Shown: positions 27,071 to 41,680 of the stretch, piece after piece
How the letters are laid out: every line of letters starts with the position of its first letter
How positions within the stretch are numbered: position 1 is the stretch's first letter
DNA from: Streptacidiphilus albus JL83
GTDB taxonomy: Bacteria > Actinomycetota > Actinomycetes > Streptomycetales > Streptomycetaceae
Reading direction: 5' to 3'
Assembly: GCF_000744705.1 (NCBI RefSeq)
Contig: NZ_JQML01000001.1
Span: 8,008,017 to 8,072,016, forward strand
Length of the DNA stretch: 64,000 nt
Made by a program: the position numbers and the translations under genes
Notes under the pieces: generated by a model
The model's database searches: none
What the model was told of the DNA's origin: nothing
The model's input: the letters and a program-made list of their open reading frames with translations, nothing else

Positions 27071-27171
27071 CGCTCCGGCGAATCCCGGGTGCGGCCGGTC
27101 GGCGGTGATCGCTAGGCTGCGGTGGACAGCGCGGGGTGCGGCGCGGTGAACGGCTGGGGGAGGCACGGGCC

Positions 27172-28119
27172 ATGTCGGTCATGAGGATGCAGGCGACCGG
27201 GGAACTGCTGACGCTGGTCGACCCGCGACAGGCGGCCCGCGTCCGGATTCGGCTGGCGGCGGCGGGACACACCCCCACGATGGCGGAGCAGCAGAGTACG
27301 TGGCAGCTGCAGTGCACCTTCCAGCAGTCGCCGCCGTCGACCCTGCTGTGGCTGCTGGAGTGCGACGACCCGGTGCTGAACACCGCCCTCTTCCACGTCC
27401 GGGCGCTCGGTGACGCCATCCGCCGGGACATCCTGGCCGGGGTGCCCTTCGACTCCGCCCGGACCGAGCCGGTCCCGGTCACCGACGAGCTCCGGGCGGT
27501 GGAGCACGGCCGGGGGCGGGACCAGCTGTTCGACCTGCCACCGCAGACCGCCGCCGAGCTGATCCCGAAGCTCCGGGCGGCCGGCGCGGCCCGTCGGCCG
27601 AAGACCTGCCGGTCGCTCGCGCGGGCCGTGCCGCGCGCCGAGTGGGGGCTGGTGGCCGAGGCCGACGCGCGGGAGCCGCTGCCCGGCTACGCCCGCTGGG
27701 CGCTGGCCTGCCACGTCAACTGCCCGCAGCCGCTGCGCTCCCGCTTCGGCGACCACCCCAAGTTCGCCCACCGGCTGCGGCAGGCCGGGGTCCTGGTCGA
27801 CGTCGAGGACTACCTGACCGGGCAGTCGGCGGCACGGGCGCTGGTCTCGCTCGGCGCGCTGCTGCGCAGCGACTCCACCCGGGGTCGGCGGGTCCGGGAG
27901 GAGTTGACGCTGCTGGTGCGGGAGCAGCTCGGCGGCCACGTCGAGGCCTGGGCCGTGCTGGCCCAGCTGCAGCCGACCTTCAGCGGCACACTGCCCGAGC
28001 TGATCGTGACCGCCTCCGCCATCGCCGGTCCGCCGCCGGCGGACGAACTGGAGGAGGACGAAGCGGGGGAGACGTACGGGCGCGAACGGCGGGCCCCGGC
28101 GGGAATCGAACCCGCGTGA
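27172..28119 (+). CDS. Hypothetical helical protein of the vWA/AAA/tRNA-like locus
   Basis: A 315-residue soluble protein starting at ATG 9 bases after GGGGGAGG. I do not recognise a family. The N-terminal third is beta-rich (TWQLQCTFQQSPPSTLLWLLECD), then LNTALFHVRALGDAIRRDILAGVPF. The C-terminal half looks like helical repeats (FGDHPKFAHRLRQAGVLVDVEDYL, ALVSLGALLRSD, VREELTLLVREQLG, AWAVLAQLQPTFSG). It points the same way as the metallopeptidase/vWA and ATPase genes, 124 bases before the former, so it is probably a member of that system. Its last 29 bases overlap the 3' end of a tRNA-like gene on the other strand. Confidence 0.75.
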   Translation: MSVMRMQATGELLTLVDPRQAARVRIRLAAAGHTPTMAEQQSTWQLQCTFQQSPPSTLLWLLECDDPVLNTALFHVRALGDAIRRDILAGVPFDSARTEPVPVTDELRAVEHGRGRDQLFDLPPQTAAELIPKLRAAGAARRPKTCRSLARAVPRAEWGLVAEADAREPLPGYARWALACHVNCPQPLRSRFGDHPKFAHRLRQAGVLVDVEDYLTGQSAARALVSLGALLRSDSTRGRRVREELTLLVREQLGGHVEAWAVLAQLQPTFSGTLPELIVTASAIAGPPPADELEEDEAGETYGRERRAPAGIEPA

Positions 28120-28163
28120 TCCGGTTCTGGAGACCGGTGCGACTGCCTCTGCGCTACAGCCCC
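28091..28163 (-). tRNA. tRNA-Trp(CCA)-like gene with mispaired acceptor stem
   Basis: A 73-nt cloverleaf. D arm GCGCAGAGGCAGTCGC, anticodon stem CCGGT/ACCGG with loop CTCCAGA (anticodon CCA), variable region ATCAC, and T arm GCGGG-TTCGATT-CCCGC. The acceptor strands GGGGCTG and CGGGGCC pair only at 1, 2, 5, 6 and 7; positions 3:70 and 4:69 are G-G. No CCA is encoded. It shares its body with the three tRNA-like genes at 32.9-33.2 kb. It sits between the unknown protein gene and the vWA gene on the opposite strand. It may be a mimic rather than a translating tRNA. Confidence 0.7.
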
Positions 28164-28243
28164 GCCGCTCGCGCGGGCGACTCTACCCGTACCCGCTGCA
28201 CCCGCCGTACTCGCCTCACCCGATTCCGCAGGGGAGCGGTCCG

Positions 28244-29647
28244 ATGACCTTCGACCCGCACCGGGCCCCGCGCCTCCACGTGGTGGACCCCACCGACCGC
28301 CGCGCGCTGGAGCGCTGGCAGCCCGCCGCGCCGGCGGTCATCGCCGAGGCGCGACGGCTCAAGGAGGCCGCGCTGCTGGACTTCGGGCTCACCCAGTCCG
28401 CCGTCGGCTCCTGGCTCTACGCCAAGTGCCGGCACCAACTGCCCACCACCGCCGTCGACACCGCCGCCGTGGTGGCCTCCGGCGACGGCACCTGCCTGCT
28501 GCTCTACAACCCGGACTTCTTCGTCGGCCTGGGCCTGGACGGGGTGAAGTTCGTCCTCTTCCACGAGGCCCGGCACCTGGTCCAGCGCCACCTCCAGTAC
28601 GAGCCCGAGCTGCAGGCGGACCCGGTCTTCCGGCTGGCGGCCGAGGTGACCATCAACCACGTGGCGCTGCTGCGGCTGGGCCGGAGCGGGTTGCCGCTGC
28701 TGGACGGGCGACCGGTCGGGATCGACCCGCGCGAGGTGCACGCCGGCTATCAGCGGGACCTGGCCGCCCAGGGGTTGGAGTCGGTGCCCTACCCGCGCTT
28801 CGTGGAGACCGACCACGGCTGCTACGCCGAGCTCCGGCGGATGACCGACCCGCCGGTGGCGGAGCAGGGCTGCATCCACCAGGACGGGGAGGCGGTCCCC
28901 GCCGACCAGGAGACGGTGGACGGGGTGGTCTCCGCGGTGCTGCTGAACGCCCTGCTGGCGGGCGTGCGCGGGAACCGGGTGGCGGAGGCGGAGCTGGGCG
29001 AACTGATGCGCCGGAGCGAGGGCGGCTCCGAGCGGACCGCCCGGATCTGGGGGCGGCTGGGCGTGGGCGCGCTGCGCGGCGAGACCGCCCGCACCGGACG
29101 GGTGGACTGGTGGCAGCGCTGGCTGGTGGACGTCCTCGGGTCGCGGCTGCGCGAGGGCGAGCGGCTGGTCTACCCCAGGAAGCGCGGGGCGATCCTGACC
29201 GCGCTCGGCCACGACCCGATGCTCTCCCGGCGCGGGCCGCTCCGGGAGCGGGTGCTGGTGATCGCCCTGGACACCTCCGGCTCGATGCCGCAGTCGGTGG
29301 TCGGCTGGCTGACCGGGCTGGTCGGCTCCATCGACGGCGTCCGGGCGCACTGGCTGTCCTTCGACGGCGTGGTCATGCCCTTCCGCCCCGGTGAGCGGGT
29401 CCGCGGCGGCGGCGGGACCAGCTTCCAGGCGGTCGCCGACCACATCGAGGGCCGCACCGCCGTCCAGGGCGCCTTCTTCGAGGAGAAGCCGGACGCCGTG
29501 ATCGTGCTCACCGACGGCTACGCCCCGCACATCACCCCCGCCGAGCCGGACAAGTGGATCTGGCTGATCACCGAGGGCGGCGACGACTGGCCCGAGGTCC
29601 ACCGGCCGCCGATGGCCTGCCACCGTGTCATGACAGGAGAGCAGTGA
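28244..29647 (+). CDS. Putative metallopeptidase / vWA-like domain protein (DUF2201 type)
   Basis: A 467-residue cytoplasmic protein with two domains. Residues about 35-200 form a zincin-like metallopeptidase domain with HEARH at 107-111 (HExxH with the catalytic Glu). Residues about 330-467 form a von Willebrand A-like domain with the MIDAS motif DTSGSM near 343-348, GGGGTSFQAVADHI and VIVLTDGYAP. The stop overlaps the GTG of the AAA gene (GTGA), so the two are made together. vWA plus MoxR-type AAA pairs act as chaperone or metal-insertion machines that remodel a client. Here the likely client or partner is encoded nearby or is RNA; this is inference. Confidence 0.9.
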   Translation: MTFDPHRAPRLHVVDPTDRRALERWQPAAPAVIAEARRLKEAALLDFGLTQSAVGSWLYAKCRHQLPTTAVDTAAVVASGDGTCLLLYNPDFFVGLGLDGVKFVLFHEARHLVQRHLQYEPELQADPVFRLAAEVTINHVALLRLGRSGLPLLDGRPVGIDPREVHAGYQRDLAAQGLESVPYPRFVETDHGCYAELRRMTDPPVAEQGCIHQDGEAVPADQETVDGVVSAVLLNALLAGVRGNRVAEAELGELMRRSEGGSERTARIWGRLGVGALRGETARTGRVDWWQRWLVDVLGSRLREGERLVYPRKRGAILTALGHDPMLSRRGPLRERVLVIALDTSGSMPQSVVGWLTGLVGSIDGVRAHWLSFDGVVMPFRPGERVRGGGGTSFQAVADHIEGRTAVQGAFFEEKPDAVIVLTDGYAPHITPAEPDKWIWLITEGGDDWPEVHRPPMACHRVMTGEQ

Positions 29648-31497
29648 CCGCCAACCCTCCCGCCCCGGCCAGCGAGCACTCGCGGCTGGAGCGGTTCATC
29701 GACGCCATGATCGACCTCGGGCTGACCGGCCAGGTCTTCGGCGAGCACGGCATCGGCAAGACCGCGACCTTCTTCAGCCACATCCCGGCCGCCCGTCCGG
29801 ACGCCGTCCTGGTCTTCGTCCCGGCGGCCAACCTCACCCCGGACGACCTGCTCGCCAACGCCCCGGTCCGCGACGCCTCCGGCGGGCTGGTGCTCCGTCA
29901 GCTGATCATGCGTCAGCTGAAGCCCGGCAGGCCGTTCGTGCTGCTGATCGACGACTCGCTGCAGGCCGGCGAGACCATCCAGTCGCAGCTGATGCAGATC
30001 GCCTGCAACTGGACGCTGGGCGAGTACGACCTGCGGGCGCTCGGCTGCATCGGGGTGTTCCTCACCGACAACGAGTCGCTGGCCGAGACCTCGGCCCGGC
30101 GCAGCGACCTGGCCATCCTGGACCGGATGACCACCGTCAGGATCGGCGCCAACGACACCTCCTGGCGGGCCGCGCTCGCGGACCGGTTCCCGCAGTGGGA
30201 CCTGCGGCCGGTGTTCGGGATCTGGGCCGCGCTCACCCCCGCCCTGCGGCAGCTGCTGTCGCCGCGCACCCTGGAGCACGTCCTGGCCAATGCCCGCGAG
30301 GGCTTCCCGCTGGTCTGGGGCCTGCCGCTGGTCAACGGCGAGCGGCTGCGGCTGGCCGAGCCCGCCCCGGGCGGCCGGGGCGCGCCCGGGGCCGACCGCA
30401 CCCACGAGATCCTGGACCGGATCGCCGCCGCGCTCGGCACCGACAACCCGGCCACCGTCGCCGACCCGGTCCGCCGGGTGGTCCGGGCCGCGCTGCGCAA
30501 CCGCTGGACGGTGCTGCTCCAGGGCCCGCCCGGCTGCGGCAAGACCGAGATCGTCCGGCAGCTGGTCCGGGAGGAGCTCGGACGCGAGCCGCTGTACTAC
30601 TCGATGCCGGTCACCAATGTCGAGGACCTGTGCGCGCCGGTGCCCACGGCGGACGGAACGCTGGACAACCTGCTCGCCGTCAACTTCACCGGCAGCGAGC
30701 CCAAGGCCATCGTCTGGGACGAGTACAACCGTCCCAAGGACAAGGCGGCCTTCGCCAAGCTGATGGAGATCACCCAGGAGTGGTCCCTGGCCGGGCAGCC
30801 GATCCAGGGCCTGCGGGGCCAGATCGCCCTGCAGAACCCGCCCTACCACCTGGGCCGCAAGCTCCAGGTGGCCCGCAACAACATCGCCCAGGCGACCAGG
30901 TTCACCGCCTCGCTGGTGGTCGACCCGGCGGACATCCCCGCCAACGAGTGGCTGATCGCCCGCTACGGCCCGGTCGCCGAGACCGTGCTGGAGTGGTGGA
31001 AGAACGACATCGACGAGGAGGGCCGGGCCTGGATCACCAAGCGGACCCTGGAACGGCTGATCAAGCTGCACGGCCACGGACTGCCACTGGAGATCGGCAC
31101 CGTCTACCTCGGCGACGGCGAGTACGCCCCGGTCCCGCTCACCGCGCTGACCGACCGGCTCAGCCGGCGCACCGTCACCGGGCTGCGCGAGCTGGCCGCC
31201 GACGCGGCGGGCTGGGAGGCCAGGCTGGTGCGCGCGGGCGAGGACTCGACCGAGGGCGGCAACGACACCGACCTGGTGCACCAGGTGATCGCCAACGCCG
31301 AGCTGTCACAGCTGCGCAAGCACCGGGCGACCGTGGTCCGGCTGGTGGCCCGGCTGCCCCCGAAGCTGCGCTCGACCTACCTGGTCGGGGCGACCGAGCA
31401 GCAGCAGCGCTTCTGGATCGAGGTCTTCGCCGCCATGCCCCGGCACCCCCGGCCCGGTCGGTGGCGCCTCACCAGTCGGCGACCCGGTAGTCCTTGA
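29644..31497 (+). CDS. MoxR-like AAA ATPase with two P-loop modules
   Basis: A 617-residue ATPase. Module 1 has a P-loop GEHGIGKT at residues 33-40 and a Walker B-like RPFVLLIDDS. Module 2 has GPPGCGKT near 294-301, Walker B IVWDEYNRP near 355-363, and a sensor-like ALQNPPYHLGR. This tandem arrangement is longer than a usual MoxR protein (about 330 residues). The C-terminal 150 residues are helical. GTG start inside the vWA stop; the 3' end overlaps the convergent SDR gene by 29 bases. It probably energises remodelling of a target by the vWA partner. Confidence 0.9.
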   Translation: MTANPPAPASEHSRLERFIDAMIDLGLTGQVFGEHGIGKTATFFSHIPAARPDAVLVFVPAANLTPDDLLANAPVRDASGGLVLRQLIMRQLKPGRPFVLLIDDSLQAGETIQSQLMQIACNWTLGEYDLRALGCIGVFLTDNESLAETSARRSDLAILDRMTTVRIGANDTSWRAALADRFPQWDLRPVFGIWAALTPALRQLLSPRTLEHVLANAREGFPLVWGLPLVNGERLRLAEPAPGGRGAPGADRTHEILDRIAAALGTDNPATVADPVRRVVRAALRNRWTVLLQGPPGCGKTEIVRQLVREELGREPLYYSMPVTNVEDLCAPVPTADGTLDNLLAVNFTGSEPKAIVWDEYNRPKDKAAFAKLMEITQEWSLAGQPIQGLRGQIALQNPPYHLGRKLQVARNNIAQATRFTASLVVDPADIPANEWLIARYGPVAETVLEWWKNDIDEEGRAWITKRTLERLIKLHGHGLPLEIGTVYLGDGEYAPVPLTALTDRLSRRTVTGLRELAADAAGWEARLVRAGEDSTEGGNDTDLVHQVIANAELSQLRKHRATVVRLVARLPPKLRSTYLVGATEQQQRFWIEVFAAMPRHPRPGRWRLTSRRPGSP

Positions 31498-32869
31498 GGA
31501 AGACCCCGGACAGCGGCTCGCCCGCCTCGCCGCGCACGATCGGGTCGTAGACCCGGGCGGCGCCGTCCACCACGTCCAGCGGGGTGCGGAAGCCCTCGTC
31601 GGCGATCCGGTCCCGCTTGGGCAGCGGGTTCTCGTCGGTGATCCAGCCGGTGTCCACGCTGGCGAGGTGGACGCCCTGGGCGGCCAGCTGCTCCGCGCTG
31701 GTCCGGGTCAGCATGTTCAGTGCGGCCTTGGCCATATTGGTGTGGGGGTGGCCGGCCGTCTTGTTGCGGACCGCGAACCGGCCCTCGACGGCAGTCACAT
31801 TGACCAGGTAGCGGCGCGGGTACGGGGACGCCAGCAGCAGCGGCAGCAGCCGGTCGCAGAGCAGCGCCGGGGCGATGGCGTTGACCAGGTGGGTCTCCAG
31901 CAGCTCGGCCGGGTCGAGCTGCCCCAGCCGGGCCGACCAGGAGTTCTCCGAGGCGGTGTCGGGCAGCAGGCCGGACTCGTCCACGGCGGCCCCGGCCCCG
32001 GCCCCGCCCGCGCCGACGGCGGCCGGGAGCAGCAGCCGCCAGTCGCCGGGCGGCGGCAGGACGCGGCCGAGGCGGAAGCCGGGGGCCTCCAGCAGCGCCC
32101 GGACCGGGGCCCCGGCCGGCAGCGGCTCGTGCTCGGCCCGGGCCAGCGGCTCGTAGTTGCCGGGCGGACGGCGGACGGTCTGCGCCGCGTTGTTGACCAC
32201 GATGTCCAGCGGCCTGCCCTCGGCCCGCAACTGCTCGCACAGGCCCAGGACCTGGCGCGGGTCGCGCAGGTCGATGCCGACCACGGTGATCCGGTCCAGC
32301 CACTCGGCGCTGCCCGGAGCGGCCCGGAACCGGCGGACGGTGTCCCGGGGGAAGCGGCTGGTGACCATCAGTTCGGCGCCGTCGCGCAGCAGCATCAGCG
32401 CCAGCTGGAAGCCGATCTTCACCCGGCCCCCGGTGAGCAGCGCCCGCCGTCCGCGCAGGTCGGTCCTGGCCTCCCGGCGGGCCAGGTTCTCGGCCGCGCA
32501 GTCGGGGCAGAGCAGGTGGTAGAAGGCGTCGACCCGGGTGAACGGGGACTTGCAGCTGTAGCAGAGCCGGGGCCTGCGGTAGCTGCCGACCGGCTCCGGC
32601 CGCTGGGCCGGCACCGTCAGCGGGGCGTCCATCCGCCGCAGTTCGGCGCCGGTCGCGGTGGCCCGGACCAGCTCGGCCTCGGCCGCGCGGACCGCCGCGC
32701 GCCGGTCCTGCCGACGGCGGTGCCGCCCGTCCCGGGCGAAGGAGGAGGCGACCTCCTCGGCCAGCAGCCGCTGCGGGTCGTCCGCAGGCAGCGCGCGCAG
32801 CTTGCCGACGGTGCGGTGGAAGGCCTCCCACTCCTCCGCGTCGATCGGACCCGCGTCGGGCTTGGTCAC
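31469..32869 (-). CDS. Zinc-ribbon SDR-like protein without catalytic tyrosine
   Basis: A 466-residue protein starting at GTG (MTKPDAG) behind GAGGA; the open frame further upstream is tRNA-like DNA, not coding. Residues 1-100 are helical and basic. Cys103, Cys106, Cys121 and Cys124 form a zinc ribbon (CYSC and CPDC). From about 138 on there is a Rossmann SDR fold with TGGRVKIG for the dinucleotide and NNAAQ. The usual catalytic YxxxK is TNMAK here, so Tyr is replaced by Thr, and there is a Gly/Ala-rich insert near 275-320. It may act as a nucleotide-binding or RNA-binding protein rather than a dehydrogenase. Three tRNA-like genes lie directly upstream on the same strand. Confidence 0.85.
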   Translation of the reverse strand: MTKPDAGPIDAEEWEAFHRTVGKLRALPADDPQRLLAEEVASSFARDGRHRRRQDRRAAVRAAEAELVRATATGAELRRMDAPLTVPAQRPEPVGSYRRPRLCYSCKSPFTRVDAFYHLLCPDCAAENLARREARTDLRGRRALLTGGRVKIGFQLALMLLRDGAELMVTSRFPRDTVRRFRAAPGSAEWLDRITVVGIDLRDPRQVLGLCEQLRAEGRPLDIVVNNAAQTVRRPPGNYEPLARAEHEPLPAGAPVRALLEAPGFRLGRVLPPPGDWRLLLPAAVGAGGAGAGAAVDESGLLPDTASENSWSARLGQLDPAELLETHLVNAIAPALLCDRLLPLLLASPYPRRYLVNVTAVEGRFAVRNKTAGHPHTNMAKAALNMLTRTSAEQLAAQGVHLASVDTGWITDENPLPKRDRIADEGFRTPLDVVDGAARVYDPIVRGEAGEPLSGVFLKDYRVADW

Positions 32870-32901
32870 GCTACTGCCGTCCTCGCGCTGCTCTGCTTCG
32901 A

Positions 32902-32977
32902 TGGTGAGCCGGGCCGGATTCGAACCGGCGTGGTCCTCGATGAAGTCGAGGTGCGTCTGCCTCTGCGCTACCGGCTC
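32902..32977 (-). tRNA. tRNA-Glu(UUC)-like gene with encoded CCA
   Basis: A 73-nt cloverleaf plus genomic CCA. Perfect acceptor GAGCCGG/CCGGCTC, discriminator A, D arm GCGCAGAGGCAGACGC, anticodon stem CCTCG/CGAGG, loop ACTTCAT (anticodon UUC), variable ACCAC, T arm GCCGG-TTCGAAT-CCGGC. Position 33 is C, not the near-universal U, and A32/U38 could pair. Its 3' end is 32 bases before the start codon of the zinc-ribbon SDR gene. Confidence 0.82.
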
Positions 32978-33011
32978 CCGGGGTGACGGTACGACGGGGT
33001 GTCCGTCGCTG

Positions 33012-33084
33012 CCCGGCCGACCGGATTCGAACCGGCGTGCTCCGCGATGCCGTCGCGGCGCGCCTGCCTCTGCGCTACGGCCGG
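33012..33084 (-). tRNA. tRNA-Ala(GGC)-like gene
   Basis: A 73-nt cloverleaf. Perfect acceptor CCGGCCG/CGGCCGG, D arm GCGCAGAGGCAGGCGC (4-bp stem), anticodon stem CCGCG/CGCGG, loop ACGGCAT (anticodon GGC), variable AGCAC, T arm GCCGG-TTCGAAT-CCGGT. As in its neighbour, position 33 is C. The acceptor helix can extend beyond position 1 into the flanks by about three pairs. No CCA is encoded (GCAG follows). It lies 34 bases before the Glu-like gene. Confidence 0.8.
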
Positions 33085-33121
33085 ACATTGCCGATGATCC
33101 TACCGCGCGGGCGGGGTGGTG

Positions 33122-33194
33122 CTCGGGCGGCCGGATTCGAACCGGCGTGACCCACTTTGGCAAAGTGGTACGACTGCCTCTGCGCCACACCCGA
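33122..33194 (-). tRNA. tRNA-Gly(GCC)-like gene
   Basis: A 73-nt cloverleaf. Acceptor TCGGGTG/CGCCCGA with one G-U pair, D arm GCGCAGAGGCAGTCGT, anticodon stem CCACT/AGTGG, loop TTGCCAA (anticodon GCC, normal U33), variable GTCAC, T arm GCCGG-TTCGAAT-CCGGC. The acceptor helix extends by four further flanking pairs (GTGC with GCAC), which a mature tRNA would not have. No CCA encoded. It is the first of three tandem tRNA-like genes (gap to the next: 37 bases). Confidence 0.8.
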
Positions 33195-41602: not shown

Positions 41603-41676
41603 CGCGGGGTGGAGCAGCTCGGTAGCTCGCTGGGCTCATAACCCAGAGGTCGCAGGTTCAAATCCTGTCCCCGCTA
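41603..41676 (+). tRNA. Initiator tRNA-fMet(CAU)
   Basis: A 74-nt cloverleaf. Acceptor CGCGGGG/CCCCGCT with an unpaired 1:72 (C1, U72), the hallmark of initiators; D arm GAGCAGCTCGGTAGCTC; anticodon stem CTGGG/CCCAG with three consecutive G-C pairs below loop CTCATAA (anticodon CAU); T arm GCAGG-TTCAAAT-CCTGT; discriminator A. No encoded CCA. It is followed by a strong terminator. Confidence 0.96.
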
Positions 41677-41680
41677 CTTG

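Follow-up and report, generated by a model that had tools for sequence, protein, structure and literature searches.

Are tRNA-like genes that lie among the genes of a protein machine ordinary tRNAs, or do they belong to the machine? The question is raised by a locus of Streptacidiphilus albus JL83 at positions 27172-33194 of the stretch of 64,000 nucleotides (nt) analysed here (the window; GCF_000744705.1, NZ_JQML01000001.1, 8,008,017-8,072,016, forward strand). The locus encodes a helical protein (P1), a metallopeptidase with a vWA domain (motifs HEARH and DTSGSM), an AAA ATPase with two P-loops and a zinc-ribbon short-chain dehydrogenase/reductase (SDR), as well as four 73-nt tRNA-like genes, all on the SDR strand and three of them directly upstream of the SDR gene. 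A preliminary description, made from the DNA letters alone, had read the proteins and the RNAs in this way; both readings held up, and ARAGORN and the RF00005 model agree on the places of the RNAs. It had further proposed that the RNAs are dedicated parts of the machine; the roles that it suggested for them (decoy, sensor or guide, perhaps in defence or RNA quality control) are conjectural. We consider it likely that a MoxR–vWA system has these four RNAs as a dedicated component; they are very probably functional, non-translating RNAs of these loci.

One family of tRNA-like RNAs with covarying stems

We scanned the AAA protein against a GTDB-based genome collection, and the locus counts given below refer to the best 80 of the 118 loci found. 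In these 80 loci together with the window stretch, a pattern of D arm and T arm marked 148 places, of which 137 remained after 11 had been discarded as spurious on inspection by eye, at one to six copies per locus. The RNAs are characterised by TA at positions 8-9, a 10-nt D loop (CAGAGGCAGN), the T loop TTCGAAT and a D arm that is near-constant across the family, the two sides of its stem of 3 base pairs (bp) changing in step (GCG/CGC, GAG/CTC, GGG/CCC, GCA/TGC). Most copies of the main lineage fit a 7-bp acceptor and an anticodon arm of 5 bp with a 7-nt loop, the acceptors of type A (the copy nearest to P1) pair in part only, and 5 of the 137 main-family copies lack a regular anticodon arm. 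In 36 copies of 73 nt, 91.5% of the stem cells pair, 15 of 20 pairs show changes in both partners, and none of 500 shuffles reached the observed values. We conclude that the RNAs are one homologous family with covarying stems. Random tRNA-like hairpins are ruled out by this covariation and by the conservation of the family.

A covariance model built from these 36 copies, R1, gave 80-86 bits for the window copies and at most 62.2 bits for the other tRNAs fetched from the same genome, i.e. 40 stretches that cover 77 of its 79 other RF00005 matches and in which ARAGORN named 77 tRNAs. In the 80 loci, 131 of 133 copies scored at least 66 bits while the remaining two scored 59.0 and 44.7 bits, and two further matches were ordinary or unrelated; this separation is partly by construction because the training copies were drawn from the same loci. 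Among 296 genomes sampled from the rest of the phylum, 19 outside the window's family had matches, at most 67.4 bits, which we take to be presumably canonical tRNAs.

With the general RF00005 model, the window RNAs are four of the five lowest (41.5-47.2 bits) among 83 matches in the 9.9-Mb genome. The copies at 28091 (z -0.60), in which the acceptor is mismatched, and at 33122 (z -3.92) both align to the covariance model, though the minimum-energy fold of neither is a cloverleaf. Elsewhere in the genome, ARAGORN identified two tRNAs for Trp(CCA), two for Gly(GCC), three for Ala(GGC) and one for Glu(UUC); thus, none of the four tRNA-like RNAs should be needed for decoding.

The RNAs are also preceded by promoter-like sites. 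Of 38 single type A copies, 35 are preceded by a TANNNT hexamer at a distance of 9-16 nt, and so are 43 of the 45 copies that come first in an SDR cluster; control windows of equal width (n=11) had TANNNT counts of 0 or 1 each. Inner cluster copies have the hexamer in 7 of 49 cases, and the gaps between neighbouring copies are 6-16 nt in 37 of 48. In 45 loci, the stretch from the last RNA to the estimated start of the SDR gene contains no TANNNT, so that the RNAs and the SDR gene are probably one transcript. Judged from these motifs, the RNAs would have promoter-like sites of their own, the SDR gene probably being co-transcribed with the RNA cluster. In the window, no clear -10 was seen before the GCC copy, the first of its cluster.

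Neighbourhood of the RNAs in two MoxR–vWA lineages

On an AAA tree of 79 loci, which leaves out a 3-kb cut contig (L052), the presence of the RNA requires 3 changes compared with a mean of 24.2 for shuffled labels, and 0 of 500 shuffles were as low. One AAA clade, spanning Streptomycetaceae, Actinospicaceae, Pseudonocardiaceae and Catenulisporaceae, has the RNA in 49 of 51 loci, 48 of them together with the zinc-ribbon SDR; in the other two loci (L081 and L085), SDR and P1 are missing as well. Over all 80 loci, 48 have RNA and SDR, one has the RNA only (L094), three have the SDR only (L105, L120 and L126, in which ARAGORN at a relaxed threshold gave noise only) and 28 have neither, i.e. vWA/AAA loci without the SDR carry no RNA, except L094. 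P1 has a tblastn match of at least 180 aa in 41 of the 49 loci that carry the RNAs, and the type A RNA is sited between P1 and the vWA gene in most orthologous loci. The same arrangement is thus found again in dozens of species, which is more than chance would give. A leucine-rich repeat (LRR) protein of the LRR_6 type is encoded downstream of the SDR in 38 of the 80 loci, two of these matches being short pieces, and 37 of the 38 loci have RNAs, the 38th being L052. In Catenulispora the gene order is rearranged and the RNA still lies directly upstream of the SDR gene.

Within the window's family, we found full AAA orthologues in 20 of 121 genomes, the window included, and R1 matches at E <=1e-13 in 35. 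These 35 genomes comprise 11 with AAA and SDR, 14 with SDR and no full AAA (G041 with an AAA fragment), two with only an N-terminal piece of the SDR, one with P1 only, six in which only solitary copies pass this cut-off, and G072, which has a locus of the second lineage described below. There are twelve stretches with SDR and RNA and no vWA or AAA match. Close SDR homologues (at least 580 bits) are present in 48 of the 121 genomes, and three of their loci (L222, L230 and L246) have decayed copies of 23-33 bits upstream of the SDR, which suggests loss in progress. In 16 SDR loci that are more distant, the only match besides canonical tRNAs was at L302 (62 bits). In total, it is the SDR, and not the vWA/AAA pair, that the RNA tracks in the window's family, and the link to vWA/AAA is not obligate. 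The preliminary description had suggested asking with a covariance model whether the tRNA-like family always accompanies the vWA/AAA pair; the nine other genomes with a full AAA orthologue had no R1 match. It had also named an occurrence of the RNAs independent of the protein genes as a ground for abandoning its proposal; such occurrence was found in part, as SDR-only and solitary copies.

Among the copies outside full loci, the solitary ones mostly have the D arm GCGCAGAGGTCG or one close to it, and several seem to have acceptors of 8 bp. At L216 (G066:C267), a P1 homologue (31%) directly adjoins a tRNA-like RNA with anticodon GCT; no SDR, vWA or AAA match was found there.

A second MoxR–vWA lineage (L217, L332-L340) has the same kind of RNA. 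In G072, the operon reads RNA, LRR protein, ankyrin-repeat protein, MoxR (AAA_5) and DUF2201-vWA, and the overall order in this lineage is tRNA-like RNA, in some cases SDR, LRR, ankyrin, MoxR and DUF2201-vWA. A class-wide search with the G072 LRR protein gave 13 of 296 genomes, in four of which the match was a first-lineage LRR (42-45%). The remaining eight genomes and G072 form the lineage-2 set, in which the RNA lies beside LRR or SDR in nine of nine genomes, the set having been reached from a locus found by its RNA. An SDR (47-51%) lies between RNA and LRR in four of the nine. MoxR and vWA are present in eight, being split over two contigs in G641; in G655 neither was found within the fetched stretch. 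In tblastn at 1e-4 against the 80 first-lineage loci, none of the lineage-2 MoxR, vWA and ankyrin proteins matched; the LRR protein did. TANNNT lies 9-10 nt upstream of 10 of 10 lineage-2 RNAs.

In a fairer test than this LRR-based set, 150 genomes of another family were searched with the lineage-2 MoxR. MoxR at 77-82% identity was found in 20 of them, and 17 of the 20 have a same-strand R1 match within about 8 kb; of the other three, one lies on a split contig, and G697, in which the contig begins 2.2 kb upstream, and G710 have no RNA. Paralogous MoxRs (50-61%), a few of them at contig ends, have the RNA in 0 of 26 cases, and G768, with a partial MoxR match of 75%, has no RNA. The counts of 17 of 20 and 0 of 26 were read from coordinates; the filters of the RNA scan are stricter and lose weak matches.

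A chance tRNA would hardly account for a homologous RNA that is kept beside two dissimilar MoxR–vWA pairs and has promoter-like sites of its own. What stands of the proposal that the RNAs are dedicated to the machine is the association itself (49 of 51 loci of the AAA clade, nine of nine and 17 of 20 as opposed to 0 of 26 in the second lineage, and the promoter-like sites); an exclusive tie to vWA and AAA does not stand, because the RNAs track the SDR, occur with it in the twelve stretches mentioned above and exist as solitary copies.

Anticodon tips, charging elements and possible function

A regular arm of 5 bp and 7 nt with at least four pairs is present in 122 of 126 unique sequences; 109 of the 122 have U33, a count that is the same with and without a bonus for U33 in ties of the arm finder, and 96 have a purine at 37. 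The anticodons are CCA (30), GCC (16), GTC (15), CTC (14), GCT (11), GGC (10), GCA (8), CGC (6) and a few others, and the triplet at one genomic site differs among related species. Acceptor stems and position 73 vary freely across copies.

In tRNAs, G73 is an identity element for Trp, U73 for Cys and Gly, G3:U70 for Ala and a long variable arm for Ser. By these rules, G73 is present in 3 of 30 CCA copies, U73 in 0 of 8 GCA and 1 of 16 GCC copies, G3:U70 in 3 of 19 Ala-type copies and a long variable arm in none of the 11 Ser-type copies, i.e. a fitting element occurs in 7 of 84 unique copies with these anticodons, the register being uncertain where the acceptor is irregular, as in type A. The stems of distinct anticodon arms match the canonical arm with the same anticodon at 6.29 of 10 positions versus 5.22 with shuffled labels (0 of 2000 shuffles). 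Because the identity elements are mostly missing and some tips have no anticodon arm, the RNAs are most likely non-translating and a dedicated part of the locus. Similarly, ordinary duplicate tRNAs are disfavoured by the missing identity elements, the anticodon-less tips and the fixed gene neighbourhood.

The constancy of the body suggests that it is held by proteins, and the variability of the tip that the tip meets an outside partner; moreover, U33 and 7-nt loops are kept in main-lineage tips, which favours a bait or sensor for a tRNA-attacking activity. In such a mechanism, the tRNA-like body, above all its D and T arms, would be held by the SDR and/or LRR proteins as a ribonucleoprotein (RNP). 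The tip, which is variable and in the main lineage shaped like a real anticodon loop, would be the bait for an attacker or binder of tRNA, for example a toxin or a phage-triggered anticodon nuclease, and its binding or cleavage would release or activate the AAA/vWA remodelling machine with its metallopeptidase domain. A bait or sensor role is possible and remains somewhat doubtful to us. The reading as a whole, i.e. a dedicated non-translating tRNA mimic with a protein-held body and a tip that triggers AAA/vWA as bait, is one that we favour tentatively and place a little short of an even chance. It is rather unlikely that these loci represent a class of RNA-equipped MoxR–vWA immune or stress machines in which the body is constant and the rapidly diversifying tips act as baits, signalling that the pool of tRNAs is under attack; in such machines, the altered SDR and the RNase-inhibitor-type LRR protein would be the RNA or nuclease handlers and AAA/metallopeptidase-vWA the effector.

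Several observations weigh against the bait reading or against a strict tie of the RNAs to these proteins. A regular anticodon arm is present in only 2 of 10 lineage-2 RNAs, and five Catenulisporales copies have a different, longer arm that is not a regular anticodon arm; these irregular tips (8 of 10 in lineage 2 and the five Catenulisporales copies) weaken the notion of an anticodon bait. The resemblance of the stems to canonical arms comes mainly from CCA (without CCA 5.76 versus 5.33; 9 of 2000), and the distinct loops equal canonical ones in 7 of 45 cases, which is not significant (153 of 2000 column shuffles were as high). A 3-bp D stem is within the range of real tRNAs. A copy of at least 58 bits lies beside only 24 of the 48 close SDR homologues, two of the stretches being cut at a contig end, so that the SDR can do without the RNA. 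Solitary relatives, mostly with anticodon CCA, lie in unrelated gene contexts (L213, L214, L215, L309-L317), and the LRR gene is absent from the window locus. Finally, neither RtcB nor TROVE matches were found near tRNA-like loci in 18 genomes: PF01139 (RtcB) matched in 18 of 18, none within 300 kb on the same contig, and PF05731 (TROVE) gave short partial matches in 14 of 18, the nearest on the same contig being about 170 kb away, in the window's genome.

These irregular tips are readily accommodated if the RNA is an RNP scaffold without a bait role, in which the body tethers or gates proteins as Y RNA does on Ro and the tip is a variable handle or client site. Both lineages have kept the body, whereas the tip is variable and no longer has the anticodon form in lineage 2 and Catenulisporales, and a vWA-containing protein with a tRNA-like RNA is the theme of Ro, a protein with helical repeats and vWA, and YrlA. 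U33 and 7-nt loops, which a plain handle would not need, are nevertheless kept in most main-lineage copies, and we regard the scaffold as unlikely. Leaders that mimic tRNAs regulate synthetase genes, and tRNA-like structures in the 5' leader could likewise regulate the SDR/LRR operon in cis, in line with their position just before the SDR or LRR gene and after a single promoter-like site; this is quite improbable given that type A forms a unit apart, with a -10 of its own and opposite in strand to vWA and P1, and that loci have one to six copies. The kept U33, the 3-bp D stems also seen in real tRNAs and the CCA that follows some copies would fit auxiliary tRNAs for translation or mistranslation, one body carrying many anticodons. 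Allo-tRNAs (PMC7609411) resemble the present RNAs in a uniform body, many anticodons and an irregular acceptor branch; their branch is 8/4 or 9/3 and their identity Ser or Ala, whereas in the RNAs here the acceptors vary, the D arm is near-constant and the gene neighbourhood is fixed. As acceptors and position 73 are free to vary, no single synthetase could read the body by the usual elements; moreover, elements that fit the anticodon are mostly absent and several tips lack an anticodon loop, making such tRNAs improbable.

Uncharged mimics that occupy the A site of the ribosome, where they slow translation or set off the stringent response, would explain why anticodon loops, which are G/C-rich in their triplets, are kept while charging elements are missing; they would not need SDR, LRR, AAA and vWA, tips without an anticodon do not fit them, and we consider them very improbable. 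To hitch-hiking tRNA relics or remnants of mobile elements, to which solitary copies in unrelated contexts and decayed copies might point, we give hardly any credence in view of the compensatory stem changes, the fixed -10 sites, the deep co-conservation and the absence of one exact RNA pattern from IMG/VR contigs. Cargo of phages or plasmids was also considered and rejected: that one pattern had 0 matches in IMG/VR contigs, no looser search having been made, and the SDR gave only two distant plasmid matches (E 1e-60, 49-51%).

To our knowledge, MoxR–vWA machines are widespread and their clients mostly unknown. We found no description of a family joining a tRNA mimic to MoxR–vWA in open-access full texts; an overlap with Burroughs and Aravind 2016 is possible, which reportedly deals with a tRNA-like molecule with SPFH/Band-7 RNA-repair systems. 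Those systems reportedly also have a tRNA-like RNA beside conflict or repair genes, with the difference that no RtcB is near the present loci. NTP-dependent conflict systems with a MoxR-type AAA adjoining a vWA protein, as here, are preponderant in multicellular prokaryotes (Kaur et al. 2020, PMC7159879); in the accessible part of that survey we found no RNA component, 'ncRNA' occurring 0 times and 'tRNA' once, in the reference list. YrlA has a tRNA-like domain, for which competitive inhibition of an anticodon nuclease was suggested as a possibility (PMC7790460); Ro/Rsr–YrlA shares with the present loci a helical-repeat and vWA protein with a tRNA-like RNA domain, whereas here SDR, LRR, MoxR and DUF2201 proteins are involved, TROVE and RtcB are not nearby and the whole RNA is tRNA-like. 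The pseudo-tRNA tRNA-Other of Bacillus cereus (PMC3399842) is a tRNA-like element that has a Trp anticodon and plays no part in translation; it differs in that it stands alone next to an island, may belong to a larger regulatory RNA and forms no protein-tied family.

A dedicated RNA partner, if true, would give a handle on what MoxR–vWA machines sense, and part of the extra tRNA genes in Streptomyces and relatives that tRNA finders call ordinary would not be tRNAs. The retention of the RNA beside the same protein set over long evolution points to an undescribed RNA–protein machine in soil bacteria, and the second lineage, in which a tRNA-like RNA accompanies LRR and ankyrin proteins, merits separate study.

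Proteins and other features of the window locus

Features of the locus in window coordinates; z, folding score; R1, family covariance model
Feature	Position	Strand	Remarks
P1, all-helical solenoid protein	27172..28119	+	start uncertain; open reading frame opens at 27136
tRNA-like RNA type A, anticodon CCA	28091..28163	-	ARAGORN and RF00005; R1 80.4 bits; antisense overlap with P1 3' end
TAGAGT, -10-like hexamer of type A RNA	28180..28185	-	16 nt upstream of type A RNA
DUF2201-type metallopeptidase (HEARH) with vWA-like domain (DTSGSM)	28244..29647	+	PF13203 E 9.8e-7
AAA ATPase, two P-loops, MoxR-like	29644..31497	+	Pfam AAA_5 E 3.5e-8
SDR with N-terminal helical hairpin and zinc ribbon	31472..32869	-	Tyr of YxxxK replaced by Thr377
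tRNA-like RNA, anticodon UUC	32905..32977	-	R1 84.5 bits; z -3.18; 35 nt upstream of SDR start; CCA follows
tRNA-like RNA, anticodon GGC	33012..33084	-	ARAGORN and RF00005; R1 83.8 bits
TAGGAT, -10-like hexamer	33097..33102	-	12 nt upstream of GGC copy; family-wide spacing
tRNA-like RNA, anticodon GCC	33122..33194	-	ARAGORN and RF00005; R1 85.8 bits

In the window, an AAA_5 protein lies beside a DUF2201_N/vWA protein, which is the MoxR–vWA pairing. By eye, the translations contain the Walker A motifs GEHGIGKT and GPPGCGKT in the AAA protein and the metal ion-dependent adhesion site DTSGSM; the second P-loop was likewise read by eye, the Pfam match itself being AAA_5. The vWA half matches PF09967 under the Pfam cut-off, and the match of the lineage-2 vWA is stronger (70 bits). 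The PADLOC core models of defence systems gave only weak P-loop matches to AAA.

P1 had no match among Pfam, NCBIfam or PADLOC models. Its AlphaFold2 model is an all-helical solenoid of 19 helices with a predicted local distance difference test score (pLDDT) of 91; it had no clear match in the PDB (best Foldseek E 1.7), and VIA gave Z <=5.1, mostly for PUF/HEAT-like pieces of residues 124-207, under the stated noise level for helical repeats; that TROVE was absent from these matches carries no weight. Of 38 P1 translations 31 were kept, those with stops or of at least 400 aa being dropped.

The zinc ribbon of the SDR was read by eye as CxxC...CxxC, and its model (pLDDT 73) has an N-terminal helical hairpin, the ribbon and a Rossmann core that matched generic SDRs only in the fold search. 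The YxxxK tyrosine of the classical enzymes is lacking; threonine takes the place of this catalytic residue in all 91 aligned rows of more than 400 aa, among which some genomes appear twice. The same genome encodes a paralogous zinc-ribbon SDR (about 54%; L293, G000:C1:1205384-1206772), of a kind present in most of the 121 family genomes, with a canonical tRNA cluster about 3.5 kb away and no tRNA-like RNA.

Two further tRNA features were noted in this genome. The tRNA-Met(CAT) at 41603-41677 (+) of the window, whose RF00005 score of 61.7 is common to five places of the genome, is unrelated to the locus. A second array of divergent tRNAs (L163, G000:C1:6687400-6688350; Met, Met, His, Trp, Gln, Asn) includes one tRNA with a D arm near that of the tRNA-like RNAs, and may be the tRNA set of a mobile element.

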